Below, in pieces: positions 1,137 to 47,707 of a stretch of DNA of 64,000 bases (position 1 is its first letter; each line of letters opens with the position of its first letter). The stretch covers positions 62,001 to 126,000 of the forward strand of contig JACOUS010000014.1 of NCBI GenBank assembly GCA_016177735.1, read 5' to 3'. Origin of the DNA: Ignavibacteriales bacterium. GTDB taxonomy: Bacteria > Bacteroidota > Ignavibacteria > Ignavibacteriales > Melioribacteraceae. The notes beneath the pieces are model-generated. The model was not told the origin of the DNA. It made no database searches and saw nothing but the letters and a program-made list of their open reading frames with translations. The translations under genes and the position numbers were made by a program.

Positions 1137-3032
1137 TCATTTTGAATAATTATATGATGAGAATCCAAAATCTTCACCATAATTTATCCGTGGAGTCAGA
1201 TAAATAATTAATTCTCCTTTGCTTTTCTTTTTTGTAGAACTTGTAAAAAATGTGCCGATCAAAGGAATATCTCCGAGCAGTGGGACCTTGTCTTCAATAT
1301 TCGTTTCTTTTTCTTGTATTAGCCCTCCAAGAATTATAGTCTCGCCGTCTTTTAACCTGACAGTTGAGAAAAATGATCTTGTATTAATAGCCGGAATTAA
1401 TCTTTTATCCGGGACGAAATCCCCTATCGGTGTTTGAAATTCTGGTTTAATTTCAAGTGTCAGTTCGTTGTTTGGATTAACCCATGGTGTAATTTCAAAA
1501 GAAATGTTTGCTTCAATTTTTTCAATTCGTTCTCTTTCTAAAAAATTGGTATTAACAGTGCTTTGAATAGGGACTACATCGTTAAAAACATAATTTTGCA
1601 CCGTGCCGATTTTCAAGCTTGCGGTATGACCGTTTAGAGTTGACAGAATTGGTTTCGATTTTACGTTGGCAATCCCATCTTGTTCGAGTGCTTTTAAGTT
1701 GATATAAAAGTCGTCGGGTAATTTACCAAGTTTTGCAACATCAATATCCTTACCGAAAAGATTAATATTTCCAACACTGTTTAAGAGGTTATTAATTTTT
1801 TTGCCGCTGGCTGTAACGTTAATACCGGGGAACCATTTATCCTTTTGACTTACGGTTGCCGAATCGCCTCTACCGGCTGTCAATCCAAATTGTTTTGTGT
1901 TGTCTAAATTATAATCAACAACTATTGCTTCAATCATTACTTGGGGGACGGGCTTGTCCATAACTTCAATATACTCTTCTAAACTCATGATATTCTCATA
2001 ATTACCCGAAAGTACAAGAGCATTGTGTTCAAGAGAGATATTTACCGAAAGCTGCTGAGTTAAATTATTCGGAAGCTTCTCTTTTATTTTATCGGCACGC
2101 AAATAATTCAACTTCACAAGTTTAGTGTTATCCAACGACTTCGAATTTTTATTCCCGATAATGTATGCTTCCTTATCTTTCTTAAATGTGAAATCTGTTC
2201 CCTTAAATAGATACTCCAGAGCTTTATCGATATCAACATCGTTGCAGCGCAGACTTACATTAACGTTCGCTACCCCAAGTTTGACTACTTGTAAATTCAT
2301 TTGCTGAAATAAATCGTTTACAACCTTATCAAGATTGGTTTCGGTAACGTTGATACTAACCTTATCGTTTTCGGCTGATACCCAATATGAATTTTTGTCT
2401 TGAGGATTTTTAGGATCTGTAGAATATGCATATGATGAACGGGATATATAATAGATAGAATCTTTAACCGTAAAAAGAAATCCGTTGTTTTGAAAAATAA
2501 GTTTGAGTCCCTTATCGAGCTCGACTTCGTTTAACGTACCCGATAATCTTCCCGTTGTTCCCTGGGTAACAAGAAAATTTTTATTCGTCTCCTTCCTCAA
2601 TTTATCAACGAACTTATTTATATCAACATTATCGAGTTTCATTGTAATTTTTCTTTTATCATAGATAATTTCGGGCCGCGGTTCTTCAGGTTTCGGTAAT
2701 ATCTTTTCTTCTTTTTTCTTAACGATAAACCTTTTGTTATCGTAACTGAAATCGAGACCGTTATCTTCTGCGATAATTTTTACAACACTAAACAAATCCA
2801 AATTATAGAGTGCCGTGGAGATTCTCGTCGTAATGTTATTATCAACAACTATATTGGTTTTGTATTCGTAAGCAATTGATCTGAGAACATCTTTTACGTC
2901 GGAATCCTTAAAATTAAGTGCGATAACGATACTCTTGCTGTTGGGCGGATATTTCAGTGAATCTTGCTGGGAAAACAGCAACGACTGCGGAATAAAAAGG
3001 AGTAGTATGATAAAACTATAATGTAGTTTCAC
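1137..3032 (-). CDS. gspD: Type II secretion/type IV pilus secretin
   Basis: Outer-membrane secretin through which the filament or exoprotein passes. There is an N-terminal signal peptide ending near FSQQ, several repeated N-type modules (residues ~35-330, each with a VDINKFVDKL/VNDLFQQM-like helix), and a C-terminal secretin core from about residue 365 (VMIEAIVVDYNLDNTKQFGL) to the end. The core holds the usual 'ETIILGGLIQE' and 'VPLLGDIPLIGTFF' signatures and a terminal 'ELIIYLTPRI'. About 631 aa, a normal length. An ATG at 3044 is possible, but a GAGG six bases before GTG 3032 and a typical K-rich signal-peptide start favour 3032. Its start overlaps the 3' end of gspE, so the two are translationally linked. 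Confidence 0.92.
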   Translation of the reverse strand: MKLHYSFIILLLFIPQSLLFSQQDSLKYPPNSKSIVIALNFKDSDVKDVLRSIAYEYKTNIVVDNNITTRISTALYNLDLFSVVKIIAEDNGLDFSYDNKRFIVKKKEEKILPKPEEPRPEIIYDKRKITMKLDNVDINKFVDKLRKETNKNFLVTQGTTGRLSGTLNEVELDKGLKLIFQNNGFLFTVKDSIYYISRSSYAYSTDPKNPQDKNSYWVSAENDKVSINVTETNLDKVVNDLFQQMNLQVVKLGVANVNVSLRCNDVDIDKALEYLFKGTDFTFKKDKEAYIIGNKNSKSLDNTKLVKLNYLRADKIKEKLPNNLTQQLSVNISLEHNALVLSGNYENIMSLEEYIEVMDKPVPQVMIEAIVVDYNLDNTKQFGLTAGRGDSATVSQKDKWFPGINVTASGKKINNLLNSVGNINLFGKDIDVAKLGKLPDDFYINLKALEQDGIANVKSKPILSTLNGHTASLKIGTVQNYVFNDVVPIQSTVNTNFLERERIEKIEANISFEITPWVNPNNELTLEIKPEFQTPIGDFVPDKRLIPAINTRSFFSTVRLKDGETIILGGLIQEKETNIEDKVPLLGDIPLIGTFFTSSTKKKSKGELIIYLTPRINYGEDFGFSSYNYSK

Positions 3033-4443
3033 GCAGCACCTCATCGTAAGTAGTTAAACCAAGCTTAATTTTTTCTAAGCCGGCATCTTTCAAAGTTTTA
3101 AATCCGTTTTCAACAGCTAATTTTTTAATAATGCCGGGTGATGCTTTTTGTGAAATTAAATCCGATAGGTTTTCGGATATATCGAAGAATTCAAAAATTG
3201 CCGTTCGTCCCGAATATCCTGTATAACTGCATTTAGTACAGCTGCTCCTTTCATAAAAACCTTGCGGTAAATCGGAAAACTCGTCATTAGTTTTTTCGAT
3301 CTTTGTTTTACAATCACACAATTTTCTTACGAGCCGCTGAGCAATTATCAGTTTTATCGAAGAAGCTACCAGGAAAGGTTCAATTCCCATATCGATTAAT
3401 CTTGTTATTGCCGAGATTGAATCATTAGTGTGAAGTGTGCTGAATACAAGATGCCCCGTAAGCGAAGAACGAATTGCAATCTCTGCAGTTTCGCGGTCTC
3501 TAATTTCTCCTACCATTATTACATCGGGGTCTTGCCGCAAAAAAGATCTAAGAGCACTTGCAAAATCATAACCTATTTCCGGCTTAACGTTGCTTTGGTT
3601 TATTCCTTCGAGGTTGTACTCAATCGGGTCTTCAATAGTTAAAATATTTTTTTCTATCGAATGGATTCGCTGCAAAGCGGCATATAAAGTTGTTGTTTTT
3701 CCGCTTCCGGTTGGTCCGGTAACTAATATCATCCCATACGGCAAATTGATTTTTTTTTGTAGAAGTTCTAACTGATCTTTTTCAAGTCCAAGGTTTGATA
3801 ACTCAATTTGTATCTGGGATCTATTCAAAATTCTTAGTACAATTTTTTCACCGAAGCTTGTCGGCAAAGAGGAAACGCGTATATCTATATTATTGTTATT
3901 ATGGGGAAATCTGATTTTGCCGTCCTGGGGTCTTCTCTTTTCTGAAATATCGAGGTTAGCCATAATTTTTAAACGGCTGATAATAGCAGCGCTTCTTGCC
4001 TTTGACAGATTATATATTTCTCTTAAATGACCGTCAACGCGATACCTGATTCTATATGCATGTTCAAACGATTCGAAATGAATATCCGATGCACCGGCTT
4101 TCACCGCATTTGAAATAATTTGATTAACGAATTCTACATTTGAGCTTTCGTTTACCGCGCTCTCAGATATTATTTCTGACTGACCGTTCTTTTTTGATTC
4201 TTCCGCCGGATAAATTTCTCTTAGCCTTGATAAAATAATTTCAGCCGGAAGTTCTACCGGTTTTATTTTTAAGCCTGTATGAAAGCTTATATCATTGATT
4301 AACCGCTGATTATTTTTATCCGATAAACCAACATGAAAATAGCCGTCTTCAATTTTTAACGGCAATATGTTTTCGTCGAAAGCTTTTCTTGCCGTTAGAA
4401 GCGAAGCAGCATCATTGGAGATATTTATTTGATACGATTTCAA
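3016..4443 (-). CDS. gspE: Type II secretion/pilus assembly ATPase GspE
   Basis: Cytoplasmic hexameric ATPase that powers pseudopilus assembly. 475 aa: short N-terminal region, then the GspE/PilB core with Walker A 'GPTGSGKTTTLY', Walker B region 'DPDVIMVGEIRD', the His box 'GHLVFSTLHTND', and a four-cysteine zinc knuckle (CDC... CTKC) near residues 385-420. The shorter N-terminus relative to the second ATPase (59651-61438) suggests a T2SS-type enzyme. Its start lies directly after the gspO stop (4444), with no gap, and it overlaps gspD downstream. Nothing looks damaged. Confidence 0.95.
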   Translation of the reverse strand: MKSYQINISNDAASLLTARKAFDENILPLKIEDGYFHVGLSDKNNQRLINDISFHTGLKIKPVELPAEIILSRLREIYPAEESKKNGQSEIISESAVNESSNVEFVNQIISNAVKAGASDIHFESFEHAYRIRYRVDGHLREIYNLSKARSAAIISRLKIMANLDISEKRRPQDGKIRFPHNNNNIDIRVSSLPTSFGEKIVLRILNRSQIQIELSNLGLEKDQLELLQKKINLPYGMILVTGPTGSGKTTTLYAALQRIHSIEKNILTIEDPIEYNLEGINQSNVKPEIGYDFASALRSFLRQDPDVIMVGEIRDRETAEIAIRSSLTGHLVFSTLHTNDSISAITRLIDMGIEPFLVASSIKLIIAQRLVRKLCDCKTKIEKTNDEFSDLPQGFYERSSCTKCSYTGYSGRTAIFEFFDISENLSDLISQKASPGIIKKLAVENGFKTLKDAGLEKIKLGLTTYDEVLRETTL

Positions 4444-45967: not shown

Positions 45968-46885
45968 TTAATCCGGCGAAAGAAATTTTAATTCTTTCTT
46001 CAGCACAGTCATACTCAAAGGAAGCGTACCGGCAAGCTCACCGTCTGTTTCCAATAGAAGTCCGTTATCGAGAGGTTCAATCGTACATGATTCAACTTCG
46101 TGGTAGCTTAACCCCGGATGATTAATAAATTGTTGTCTGCGGATTTTCGGTAGGTTTTTCAGATAATCGAACAAACTTATATCTCCGGCAATAACAACAG
46201 CAATTTTTCCGTCATCAACTTTTGCGTGCGGAGCTATTCCCAATCCGCTGCCGAAGTAACCGGCATTTGCGAGACACAAAATCAAAACCGCACCTTCCCA
46301 AACAAATTCTTTTGAAACAATTTTTATTCTTTTCTTTTTATAACTGAAGAATGCCTGAATGGATGCTTTAAAATATCGAAACGTTGGTCCAAAGATTTTT
46401 TTACTGCGATTTAAAATTGCAACCACCTCTCCGCCCAAACCTATATCTGCAATATTGTTAAAGTATCGGGTGATATCCCGGTTATTAAAATCTTTGCATT
46501 TGATTTCACCGAGGTCAATAACACGGTAGTTATTTTGCAGAATCATTTTTTTAAGGTAGGCAATATCCGAACTCAACTTCATTGTTTTCGCAAAGTCATT
46601 TCCCGAACCGGTAGGCAGCAATCCGACAATTAAATCATTTCTTTTTTCTTTCGGAGCTTTCATTACACCGTTAATTACTTCGTTGATTGTGCCGTCCCCG
46701 CCGATAGCAATAATATAATCGGCACCGTTAGATAAACTACGTTCCGCAAGCGTTATTGATTCGGTGCTTCTCGGAGAAATTAAAAATGATAAATCAAATT
46801 CTTCGGAAAATTGATTTTCTATTTCTGCACGGATTGAATCAATGTTTTTCAGTAATCCGTTTACAACAAAAGAAATTTTCTTCAT
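45968..46885 (-). CDS. Diacylglycerol kinase-family lipid kinase
   Basis: 305 aa. ATP-binding motif 'GGDGTINEVINGV', 'GLLPTGSGNDFAKTM' and 'NIADIGLGGEVVA' mark the YegS/BmrU/DagK lipid kinase family; 'YFGSGLGIAPHAKVDDG' closes the active site. Phosphorylates diacylglycerol or a related lipid at the inner membrane face. Single gene, 84 bp after the membrane protein's start. Confidence 0.92.
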   Translation of the reverse strand: MKKISFVVNGLLKNIDSIRAEIENQFSEEFDLSFLISPRSTESITLAERSLSNGADYIIAIGGDGTINEVINGVMKAPKEKRNDLIVGLLPTGSGNDFAKTMKLSSDIAYLKKMILQNNYRVIDLGEIKCKDFNNRDITRYFNNIADIGLGGEVVAILNRSKKIFGPTFRYFKASIQAFFSYKKKRIKIVSKEFVWEGAVLILCLANAGYFGSGLGIAPHAKVDDGKIAVVIAGDISLFDYLKNLPKIRRQQFINHPGLSYHEVESCTIEPLDNGLLLETDGELAGTLPLSMTVLKKELKFLSPD

Positions 46886-46976
46886 TAAATTTTTTTAGAA
46901 AAATAATAATAACGGAAGTGAAGATATTCAATTTCTTGAATTCTCTAAAGAAAAAATTGGATGTGACATACAGAAA

Positions 46977-47006
46977 TGATTTGATGATATAAACTGTGTA
47001 CATCAT
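46977..47006 (-). pseudogene. GIY-YIG nuclease start remnant
   Basis: Ten codons 'MMYTVYIIKS' repeat the beginning of the GIY-YIG frame at 47268 and then lose similarity. It lies 18 bp beyond the 3' end of a tRNA remnant, the same spacing as the longer copy after tRNA-Lys. The DNA 46981-47039 is identical to 47243-47301 except for one base. Confidence 0.7.
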
Positions 47007-47023
47007 CTTTGAGTGTAAATATG

Positions 47024-47113
47024 TGAGCGCGGGTGGGCTTCCCGATTTCATCGGGATAAACTTCTCACCGACCCCTCCGACTTATCAGTCGGAGTGCTCT
47101 ACCACTGAGATAG
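47024..47113 (-). pseudogene. tRNA remnant (D arm to acceptor) with inserted hairpin
   Basis: The minus strand shows a D-arm text (TCTCAGTGGTAGAGCA), an expanded anticodon arm (CTCCGACT-TATC-AGTCGGAG on plus, 47075-47094; stem CTCCG with a 10-nt loop), then GGTCGGTG and finally CCCACCCGCGCTC, equal to the tRNA-Lys 3' end. The 5' acceptor strand is absent: it abuts GIY-YIG sequence. The T loop is replaced by the palindrome TCCCGAT-TTC-ATCGGGATAAACTTC (47040-47064). Not able to form a tRNA. Confidence 0.75.
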
Positions 47114-47268
47114 TTTTTGCAAATAACTAATTGCCACGGACGTTTCCCTTTTGTAAAAGGGCTTCTATTTTCGTTGTGACGTTTTAGTCTGTCTTCAAGA
47201 TTTGCTGTGTGACCGATATAATGAAGATCGTGCAATGTGGAATTGATGATATAAATTGTGTACATCAT
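47113..47268 (-). pseudogene. GIY-YIG nuclease, 3' truncated
   Basis: Starts ATGATG at 47268, 18 bp after the end of tRNA-Lys. 'MMYTIYIINSTLHDLHYIGH' has the GIY-YIG pair as IYI...YIG, followed by 'TANLEDRLKRHNENRS', 'FTKGKRPWQLV' and 'ICKN', the usual first 50 residues of the small stand-alone GIY-YIG (UvrC-like) family. The last third, with the family's Glu helix, is replaced by the tRNA remnant, so the frame ends in tRNA text (stop at 47065). Probably inactive. Confidence 0.75.
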
Positions 47269-47285
47269 CTTTGAGTGTAAATATG

Positions 47286-47357
47286 TGAGCGCGGGTGGGC
47301 TCGAACCACCGACCCTTTGCTTAAAAGGCAAATGCTCTACCCCTGAGCTACGCGCCC
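47286..47357 (-). tRNA. tRNA-Lys(TTT)
   Basis: A 72-nt cloverleaf: acceptor GGGCGCG pairs with CGCGCTC (one G-U), D arm GCTC...GAGC, anticodon stem TTTGC/GCAAA with loop CTTTTAA (anticodon TTT), variable GGGTC, T arm GGTGG-TTCGAGC-CCACC, discriminator A. CCA is not encoded. The only intact tRNA in the window, flanked by two damaged relatives. Confidence 0.95.
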
Positions 47358-47382
47358 TATTACTAACTAAAATTTTTTAAAA

Positions 47383-47462
47383 GAACCACCAACCCCTCCG
47401 ACTTGACAGAGTCGGAGTGCTCTACCACTGAGCGAAGTTCATCCCGATTTTTCGGGACGCCC
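47383..47462 (-). pseudogene. tRNA remnant, 5' hairpin insertion and 3' truncation
   Basis: Upstream tandem partner of tRNA-Lys. It begins GGGCG like the intact gene, but the rest of the acceptor is replaced by TCCCGA-AAAA-TCGGGATGAACTTC (plus strand 47434-47457), then GCTCAGTGGTAGAGC, an anticodon arm with a 12-nt loop (CTCCG...CGGAG), GGGTTGGTGGTTC and an abrupt end in the T arm. The flank GCCCTATTACTAAC and the following AT text occur after both copies (47354-47386; 47459-47489), proof of a tandem duplication of about 105 bp. Confidence 0.75.
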
Positions 47463-47707
47463 TATTACTAACAAAATTTCTTAAAGAACTGGCTATATGC
47501 TTACAATACTGTCTGAAGTCAAAATTTGAGCCGTAAATATATACATTTGAGGATATAATTTCCAAACTACCACGAATATTCTTTCATCGAATAATTCTGT
47601 ATTCGCCTCTGATTAAATCATAGCTTAACACAAAGCGCAATGATATTCACGAATGGTTTTATCGCTGAATTTTTATATATTGTTTTTAAACCAATTCTGA
47701 AAGTTTT
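47463..47707. other. Gene-free spacer before signalling island
   Basis: About 245 bp between the tRNA remnant and the sigma-54-type regulator. Apart from the duplicated tRNA 5' flank (to 47489) I see no gene, strong hairpin or repeat. It must hold the divergent promoters for the tRNA (minus) and the regulator (plus). Confidence 0.5.

Follow-up and report, generated by a model that had tools for sequence, protein, structure and literature searches.

How does a tRNA gene that is the only one found for its anticodon come to stand between two damaged copies of itself, with a short nuclease frame just beyond its end? This question is raised by a locus in a window of 64,000 nucleotides, the whole stretch of DNA that was analysed (Ignavibacteriales bacterium, assembly GCA_016177735.1, contig JACOUS010000014.1, positions 62,001 to 126,000). 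A first-pass annotation, made without database searches, had proposed a tRNA-targeting mobile unit in which a GIY-YIG gene travels with a tRNA 3' end and repeated events leave truncated copies. The results reported here support this hypothesis, with DNA cleavage remaining an inference, and the window locus is most likely a decayed copy belonging to a large family of very small mobile elements of tRNA genes.

Results

A tRNA-Lys locus with patterned damage

Read on the minus strand, the locus consists of a damaged tRNA-Lys, a duplicated leader, an intact tRNA-Lys(TTT), a gap of 16 nt, a GIY-YIG gene, a second damaged tRNA and finally 29 nt of a GIY-YIG start (Table 1). The first-pass annotation had described one intact tRNA-Lys flanked by two damaged copies, and this held: the intact gene is the sole tRNA with anticodon TTT that ARAGORN found in the genome, and neither damaged copy was reported as a tRNA by an Rfam scan, even at E<=10. 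A GIY-YIG frame had been placed 18 bp past the tRNA end after two of the three tRNA-like units; the frame is real, the gap is 16 nt rather than 18, and the second frame is only a start fragment, with no Pfam match and only its first ~10 codons repeating the GIY-YIG start. The claimed 59-bp repeat with one difference is contained in a direct repeat of 62 nt (97% identical), and the claimed upstream duplication of ~105 bp also held, its two members being tRNA leader plus 5' end. What had escaped the annotation is that the damage is patterned. Each damaged copy carries a hairpin that replaces an arm plus a second hairpin, and in the downstream copy the hairpins stand in place of the anticodon arm and part of the T arm; the anticodon-arm hairpin of this copy recurs as an identical 20 nt at the same tRNA position in another genus (L050).

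Table 1. Features of the tRNA-Lys locus, in positions of the window
Feature	Position	Strand	Evidence or remark
Intact tRNA-Lys(TTT)	47285-47357	minus	ARAGORN; Rfam RF00005, 69.7 bits
Truncated GIY-YIG gene, 67 aa	47065-47268	minus	PF01541, 42.5 bits, profile 1-53/78
Downstream pseudo-tRNA-Lys, 3' end retained, 5' acceptor strand absent	47023-47109	minus	Hairpins for anticodon arm and part of T arm
Hairpin in place of anticodon arm, downstream copy	47075-47094		8-bp stem, 20 nt
Hairpin TCCCGATTTCATCGGGA, T arm of downstream copy	47040-47056		
Second GIY-YIG copy, 5' fragment (MMYTVYIIKS), truncated array end	46978-47006	minus	Repeat 46978-47039 / 47240-47301; ORF 46839-47051
Upstream pseudo-tRNA-Lys	47383-47462	minus	Hairpin for anticodon arm; second hairpin between acceptor and D arm
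Hairpin in place of anticodon arm, upstream copy	47396-47417		8-bp stem
Hairpin TCCCGATTTTTCGGGA, upstream copy, between acceptor 5' strand and D arm	47442-47457		
Duplicated leader and tRNA 5' end	47458-47485	minus	Partner 47353-47380, spacing 105, 86% identical

The GIY-YIG gene matches PF01541 well above the curated cut-off of 22.6 bits, and it is judged truncated because the match spans only part of the profile. About 50 aa are GIY-YIG; the remaining tail is read-through into the downstream pseudo-tRNA. Identity to full-length Lys-type relatives from two other genera is 47% (L067) and 44% (L050), and alignment to such relatives places the end of the window copy before the catalytic Glu; the copy is therefore probably dead, a judgement made from sequence alone. 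No intron family was found in 46700-47700 at E<=10 (Rfam) and the intact tRNA adjoins the gene, so an intron-borne nuclease was rejected; the gene is free-standing in the sense of not being encoded in an intron or intein. The annotation had also suggested a search for target-site duplications, and no separate one was found, the direct repeat being the tRNA part itself.

Damaged tRNA copies in the source genome

In the fetched stretches of the source genome, ARAGORN reported 45 tRNA genes, with every anticodon present once except CAT, which occurs three times. Ten of the 45 have a damaged copy of themselves on the same strand within 900 bp (>=14 nt exact), whereas 5 hits were obtained in 1854 comparisons with the flanks of tRNAs that carry a different amino acid, and 1 in 45 when the opposite strand was examined; damaged copies near their own tRNA thus exceed chance. 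PF01541 has 11 matches in the genome. Five lie near intact tRNAs (Asp, Met, Lys, Ala and Leu, the Met one ~450 bp off), and two at contig starts (C39 and C22) have a tRNA-Ala 3' end and the beginning of the gene in common, so that they probably represent a single locus.

Two further observations concern this genome. Upstream hairpin-bearing pseudo-tRNA copies occur at tRNA-Val(GAC), Pro(TGG), Glu(CTC) and Ser(TGA) (L017, L018, L035 and L039), in tandem in three of the four cases, and those stretches have no PF01541 match. The Asp locus (L021) contains an 11-N run within its repeated upstream copies, which leaves their number uncertain.

Linkage to tRNA genes and tandem arrays in relatives

In five single-contig relatives (G009, G035, G046, G048 and G049), 72 GIY-YIG rows were listed, from which 10 UvrC-type rows (open frames >=560 aa) and one row with three stops were dropped; the other 61 rows form 35 clusters of short GIY-YIG genes. 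Twenty-two of these clusters have a tRNA no more than 700 bp away, without exception on their own strand, where by a rough estimate, given ~45 tRNAs per genome, fewer than one would be expected by chance. When the cluster is 3' of the tRNA, the domain starts 5-56 nt from it in 12 of 15 cases (86, 263 and 545 nt in the others). In a set of 166 loci, each with a different nuclease sequence, 125 have their nearest tRNA within 700 bp oriented like the gene, and none has it oriented the other way.

The units also often form tandem arrays. Five copies encoding identical proteins follow a tRNA-Leu with a 450-bp period (L076), five near-identical copies follow a tRNA-Asp with a 315-bp period (L077), and three copies precede a tRNA-Pro with a 317-bp period (L078); in the arrays seen, the repeat unit is about 0.3-0.45 kb and holds one gene. 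These arrays bear on the possibility that the repeats in the window are an assembly artefact. In favour of an artefact, some source-genome matches lie at contig ends and the Asp array contains the 11-N run, but the same architecture, tandem tRNA-linked GIY-YIG units, stands inside single-contig genomes. We therefore consider an artefact very unlikely and reject it.

The first-pass annotation had named two observations that would refute it. Collapse of the repeats on re-assembly was not met, the arrays persisting inside single contigs. Occurrence of the same gene far from tRNAs was partly met, 13 of the 35 clusters being unlinked; several of these belong to a separate clade that is never linked, and of the 145 rows of the linked clade, 12 have no tRNA up to 700 bp away. 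One of the 13 (L123) lies just 3' of a tmRNA. At this locus in G048, the tmRNA occupies 1043-1401 and a GIY-YIG gene of the linked clade lies near 1560, on the 3' side and the same strand; no tmRNA repeat was found beyond the gene.

Species genomes were searched with five proteins, of which three are linked to tRNA-Asp, one to tRNA-Ala and one to tRNA-Ser. This yielded 295 relatives, of which 80 were analysed; these come from Ignavibacteria/Melioribacteraceae, Bacteroidota, Cloacimonadota, Neomarinimicrobiota, Zixiibacteriota and one Parcubacteria record. These loci were found by protein similarity alone, and at 65 of the 80 a tRNA stands no more than 600 bp away, never on the other strand; two of those tRNA calls (L155 and L219) belong to damaged copies. 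Of the 15 loci without such a tRNA, 9 start no more than 100 nt from the end of a contig. Matches to one Ala-type protein (E<=1e-15) were present in 44 of the 395 genomes of a phylum sample. A search of 50,697 phage and 72,556 plasmid records with one Asp-type protein gave no match, and viral contigs gave three weak matches for the five proteins searched. Membership of a defence system was dropped, the PADLOC matches being only weak.

Pseudo-tRNAs with exchanged arms

The typical unit comprises an intact tRNA, the GIY-YIG gene and then a pseudo-tRNA of the same isotype in which one arm, either the anticodon arm or the T arm depending on the isotype, is replaced by a hairpin. With two loci excluded for too little flank, a tRNA piece beyond the gene scored better than 50 shuffles in 50 of 63 loci and none was detectable in the other 13; at one of the 50 (L168) the match is another intact tRNA, leaving 49. 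At 71 of 101 loci, 12 nt from the 3' end of the tRNA are found again in the 2.5 kb that follow it. A hairpin that is absent from the intact tRNA and anchored in tRNA sequence on both sides was found in 60 of 107 loci, as against 1, 1, 1, 1 and 0 in five shuffled sets; the remaining 47 loci gave no hairpin by this strict test.

The position of the hairpin is exact. It takes the place of precisely the 17-nt anticodon arm in 19 loci of the Ala, Lys, Met, Pro and Val types, and a few further loci deviate from this by some bases. In two Gly loci and 16 Asp loci (L002, L059, L077, L131, L142, L144-L147, L149, L153, L154, L169, L197, L228 and L244), the exchanged segment is in every case the same 8 nt within the T arm. 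The rows behind these counts are related and not independent. By hand count, about 49 of the 67 hairpins listed have TCCCG..CGGGA arms with varying loops.

The tRNA piece that travels with the gene had been described as a 3' end, and this is the usual case; mirror-image units with the tRNA 5' half also exist. The tRNA lies after the gene in 20 loci, of which 14 have a tRNA 5' end before the gene, 8 of them with a flagged hairpin there.

Searched as a genome-wide family, one exact hairpin pattern gave only 2 matches at up to 3 mismatches, and the genome-wide counts use a looser pattern that replaced it. With this pattern, five genomes contain 5-36 hairpins of the TCCCG..CGGGA kind each, against 0-1 for a control pattern. 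G048 has 32 such sites, of which 6 are close to a GIY-YIG match and 26 are not. Because such hairpins, including hairpin-bearing tRNA copies, often occur without a GIY-YIG gene, the process that generates them may be separate from the gene.

Two side observations belong here. In a complete genome (G375), TCCCGA..TCGGGA palindromes at several of 14 sites (among them L292, L295, L303 and L304) resemble transcription terminators, and others sit inside longer repeats. At L288 (G035:C1:328500-331200, positions 871-1558), 11 tandem copies of ~67 bp precede a tRNA-Asn, the repeat consisting of leader, tRNA-Asn 5' part and hairpin; there is no GIY-YIG match there.

These hairpins suggest a rival explanation, in which the hairpin is the mobile part and the GIY-YIG protein recognises, moves or cuts hairpins, the tRNA arms being hairpins themselves. 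REP/RAYT and IS200/IS605 are systems of short hairpins tied to one small enzyme, like the present units; here, however, the enzyme is a GIY-YIG protein, and units of 315-450 bp have no room for a Y1 transposase. In favour of this rival, the TCCCG..CGGGA arms recur at exact tRNA positions across isotypes and phyla as well as elsewhere in genomes, the exchanged tRNA segments are themselves palindromic, and the closest solved relatives of the nuclease after UPF0213 are branched-DNA nucleases of the Slx1 type. Against it stand the 26 hairpins in G048 without a GIY-YIG match near, the terminator-like hairpins in G375, and the movement between two species of the whole block of tRNA, gene and pseudo-tRNA (see below). 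We regard this explanation as unlikely.

A single-domain nuclease whose lineages follow the tRNA isotype

A quick tree was built from 162 proteins, one per locus, with rows more than 80% alike dropped and few columns. It separates a clade of 17 rows (100% SH-aLRT) without a tRNA neighbour, 15 having none and 2 being cut at contig ends, which we take to be YhbQ/UPF0213-like. The other 145 rows include all 122 linked rows and 12 unlinked ones, the remainder lying at contig ends. Among the 12, L076 and L187 have a tRNA slightly beyond 700 bp, L161 has an Asp remnant, L214 a pseudo-tRNA, L123 the tmRNA, and at L167 a group I intron interrupts a tRNA-Met; for L060, L072, L120, L121, L218 and L257, Rfam found neither tRNA nor tmRNA. 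The tRNA isotype changes 36 times on the tree, compared with at least 72 times in 300 shuffles (113 rows). This pattern fits target-specific lineages, to which vertical descent may contribute, and 36 changes also mean that targets do switch. The tree's per-row 5' and 3' side labels cannot be trusted where the tRNA and the aligned frame overlap, and no result here draws on them.

Two of these loci deserve separate mention. At L167 (Runella zeae DSM 19591, 2421-3582), the GIY-YIG gene is flanked by hairpin-bearing copies of the tRNA-Met 5' part, and the intron that splits the tRNA-Met holds an HNH-like frame, judged by eye, so that two kinds of homing element share one tRNA. At L214 (2501-2790), a GIY-YIG gene and a hairpin-bearing pseudo-tRNA-Ala occur in a locus without an intact tRNA.

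The isotype pattern bears on a second rival, that the units are remnants of tyrosine-recombinase elements integrating at tRNA 3' ends, with the GIY-YIG gene as a passenger. The direct repeats formed by tRNA 3' halves, as at att sites, speak for it. However, units of 315-450 bp leave about 60-200 nt beside the GIY-YIG frame, which is no room for an integrase, the mirror-image units use the tRNA 5' half, and the nuclease lineage follows the tRNA isotype. This rival is very unlikely and was rejected on the first two grounds.

Full-length relatives of the nuclease are single domains of about 80-95 aa; an 82-aa protein was modelled by AlphaFold2 as one domain with a pLDDT of 93. The modelled protein is without the separate DNA-binding domain of I-TevI; since such a domain is missing from other GIY-YIG families too, this is not decisive. 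By sequence, the nearest solved relatives are UPF0213 (E 1e-16), Slx1 (1e-8) and the catalytic domain of I-TevI (1.6e-4); by fold, they are 1zg2 (E 7e-5, with a poor rmsd of 7.3) and Slx1 (E 4e-3 and weaker), the I-TevI match (E 0.46) not being significant. Seven proteins compared with TIGR01453, the group I intron-encoded endonuclease family, reached at best 29.9 bits against a cut-off of 56.05. An alignment of 20 relatives shows Tyr17, Arg27 and Glu63 as invariant and Tyr6 as nearly so. The catalytic residues of the GIY-YIG domain are Tyr, Tyr, Arg and Glu; roles for the Arg and Glu are also given in PMC2988022. Their conservation suggests that the relatives probably encode active nucleases, again an inference from sequence. 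Kinship with Slx1 may fit palindromic or branched targets and proves nothing.

Occupied and empty sites, transfer and selection

The synteny of the window's own Lys locus led nowhere: a neighbouring kinase-like gene was found in four other genomes, three of whose loci were scanned (L224-L226, one cut short by its contig) and had no tRNA, the fourth being a weak match in G035. Gene-bearing and gene-free sites were therefore compared in another genus, which we take to be flavobacterial, at a tRNA-Ala next to an enoyl-CoA-hydratase-like gene. The GIY-YIG gene is present at 6 of the 30 loci, with an in-frame stop at L268; 23 loci have only the tRNA, as scored by a motif search within 520 bp, and one has no tRNA. 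L241 and L242 of the same genus are also gene-bearing, giving 8 occupied loci in all. When an occupied locus (L258) is aligned with an empty one (L259), the left half of the empty tRNA matches the intact tRNA and the right half matches the distal pseudo-tRNA, a pattern to be expected had the anticodon arm been the point at which the original gene was divided; this possible reading rests on one discriminating base.

One pair of species documents movement. Between L241 and L276, the hydratase gene has a dS of 1.49 and the flanks are 81-83% identical, while the GIY-YIG gene has a dS of 0.05, and the stretch of 480 nt that begins with the tRNA and ends 47 nt beyond the pseudo-tRNA shows 14 differences (97% identical); L276 has an extra upstream pseudo-tRNA that L241 lacks. 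Because the unit is nearly identical while the neighbouring gene is so divergent, this is a recent horizontal transfer into the same site, and it is the only clear one found. Homing with co-conversion would produce this pattern; that the spread occurs by homing is an inference. The one-strand linkage, the tandem units in single-contig genomes, the gene-bearing and gene-free sites and this transfer together support the earlier claim that the gene travels with a tRNA piece and that repeated events left truncated copies.

The nuclease is under purifying selection. Its dN/dS is 0.07-0.21 in 14 pairs with finite, mostly large dS; six pairs are saturated, and the closest pair (L276/L241) gives 0.43 with very few changes. 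This selection has to be weighed with a third rival, in which the GIY-YIG gene belongs to the host and is transcribed together with tRNAs, serving perhaps the maintenance of tRNA loci, and its copies arose by slippage. The constant strand, the short tRNA-to-domain distance noted above for 12 of 15 clusters and the selection itself favour such a role, but presence at one locus is patchy within a genus, the tRNA partner changes between lineages and the gene is transferred horizontally. We consider a host gene very unlikely.

A tRNA recoded at the anticodon arm as a rescue copy was also considered. The 8 occupied loci have two kinds of anticodon arm (6 and 2 loci), which are also the commonest in the 23 gene-free loci (15 and 4), and such recoding was thus not seen.

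Discussion

The explanation we favour as likely is that the element is a free-standing homing-type nuclease acting on tRNA genes, with one working tRNA left in place. The linkage, the unit structure, the exact isotype-specific hairpin exchanges, the tandem amplification, the empty and occupied sites, the purifying selection and one transfer are shown; cleavage is inferred. The nuclease would cut the tRNA gene at the arm that is later found exchanged, and repair of the break from an element-bearing copy would copy the element in, by homing, along with some flank. Selection would always keep one intact tRNA as the only gene for its anticodon, and the spare copy would scar at the cut site. Tandem and truncated copies, like those of the window, would follow from repeated cutting combined with unequal repair. 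The strongest single piece of support for the putative cut site is that the scars lie at one exact place per isotype.

Several points weigh against the homing model. The element's own tRNA is spared although its anticodon arm is not recoded, which is unexplained, and so is the role of hairpin scars that so often have the same arms. No carrier between cells has been identified, one Asp-type protein having been compared with phage and plasmid records, and the six nucleases of the linked clade noted above have no tRNA nearby. Isotype conservatism could also be due in part to vertical descent. The lack of a separate DNA-binding domain, the hairpins and hairpin-bearing arrays without a GIY-YIG gene, the 47 loci without a hairpin, the 13 without a tRNA piece and the single clear transfer count on the same side.

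As far as the open-licence literature was searched, the nearest published case is SegB of phage T4, a free-standing GIY-YIG nuclease encoded between tRNA genes and implicated in cutting tRNA-containing DNA (PMC2988022, PMC13096335); escape phages carry tandem repeats of tRNA-Tyr with truncated segB, which arose by recombination (same sources). Both the position of a GIY-YIG gene by tRNA genes and the tandem repeats of tRNA and truncated nuclease gene resemble our observations. The present elements differ in being chromosomal, in encoding a single domain of 80-95 aa, in being tied mostly to one tRNA isotype per lineage and in having a pseudo-tRNA with an exchanged arm as part of the unit. UPF0213 and Slx1 (PDB 1zg2, 1ywl, 6seh) are the closest solved relatives by sequence and fold, and Slx1 acts on branched DNA; the UPF0213-like sister clade of the same genomes, however, has no tRNA neighbour. 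Synthetic home-and-rescue and cleave-and-rescue drives (PMC7968924, PMC7951863) likewise place a nuclease beside a working copy of an essential target, whereas the present element is natural and bacterial and shows no evidence that the working copy is recoded against cutting. We recognised no description of chromosomal tRNA-linked GIY-YIG units with hairpin-bearing pseudo-tRNAs in the open-licence PMC literature, a scope that excludes most subscription papers and preprints. We class the units as a variant of free-standing homing endonuclease elements, with a real chance of deserving a class of their own.

A bolder reading, which we find attractive and yet would not quite back at present, is that these units are a new class of minimal bacterial selfish elements, a natural home-and-rescue drive. 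A one-domain nuclease would attack an essential single-copy tRNA gene and keep a working tRNA as the rescue, and the hairpin-armoured pseudo-tRNA would be either a cut-proof homology arm or the enzyme's own recognition site. Such a class would reach many tRNA isotypes, perhaps tmRNA, and several phyla.

If the homing explanation is true, the tRNA genes of Bacteroidota, Ignavibacteria, Cloacimonadota and neighbouring phyla would be under attack by self-spreading elements that rank among the smallest, with every lineage tied mostly to one tRNA. This would explain many of the small GIY-YIG proteins to which no role has been assigned, the tRNA pseudogenes and the repeats flanking tRNA genes in these genomes, and it would provide a source of natural small nucleases with tRNA-gene specificity. 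The persistence of a selfish nuclease on an essential single-copy gene would thereby become testable.
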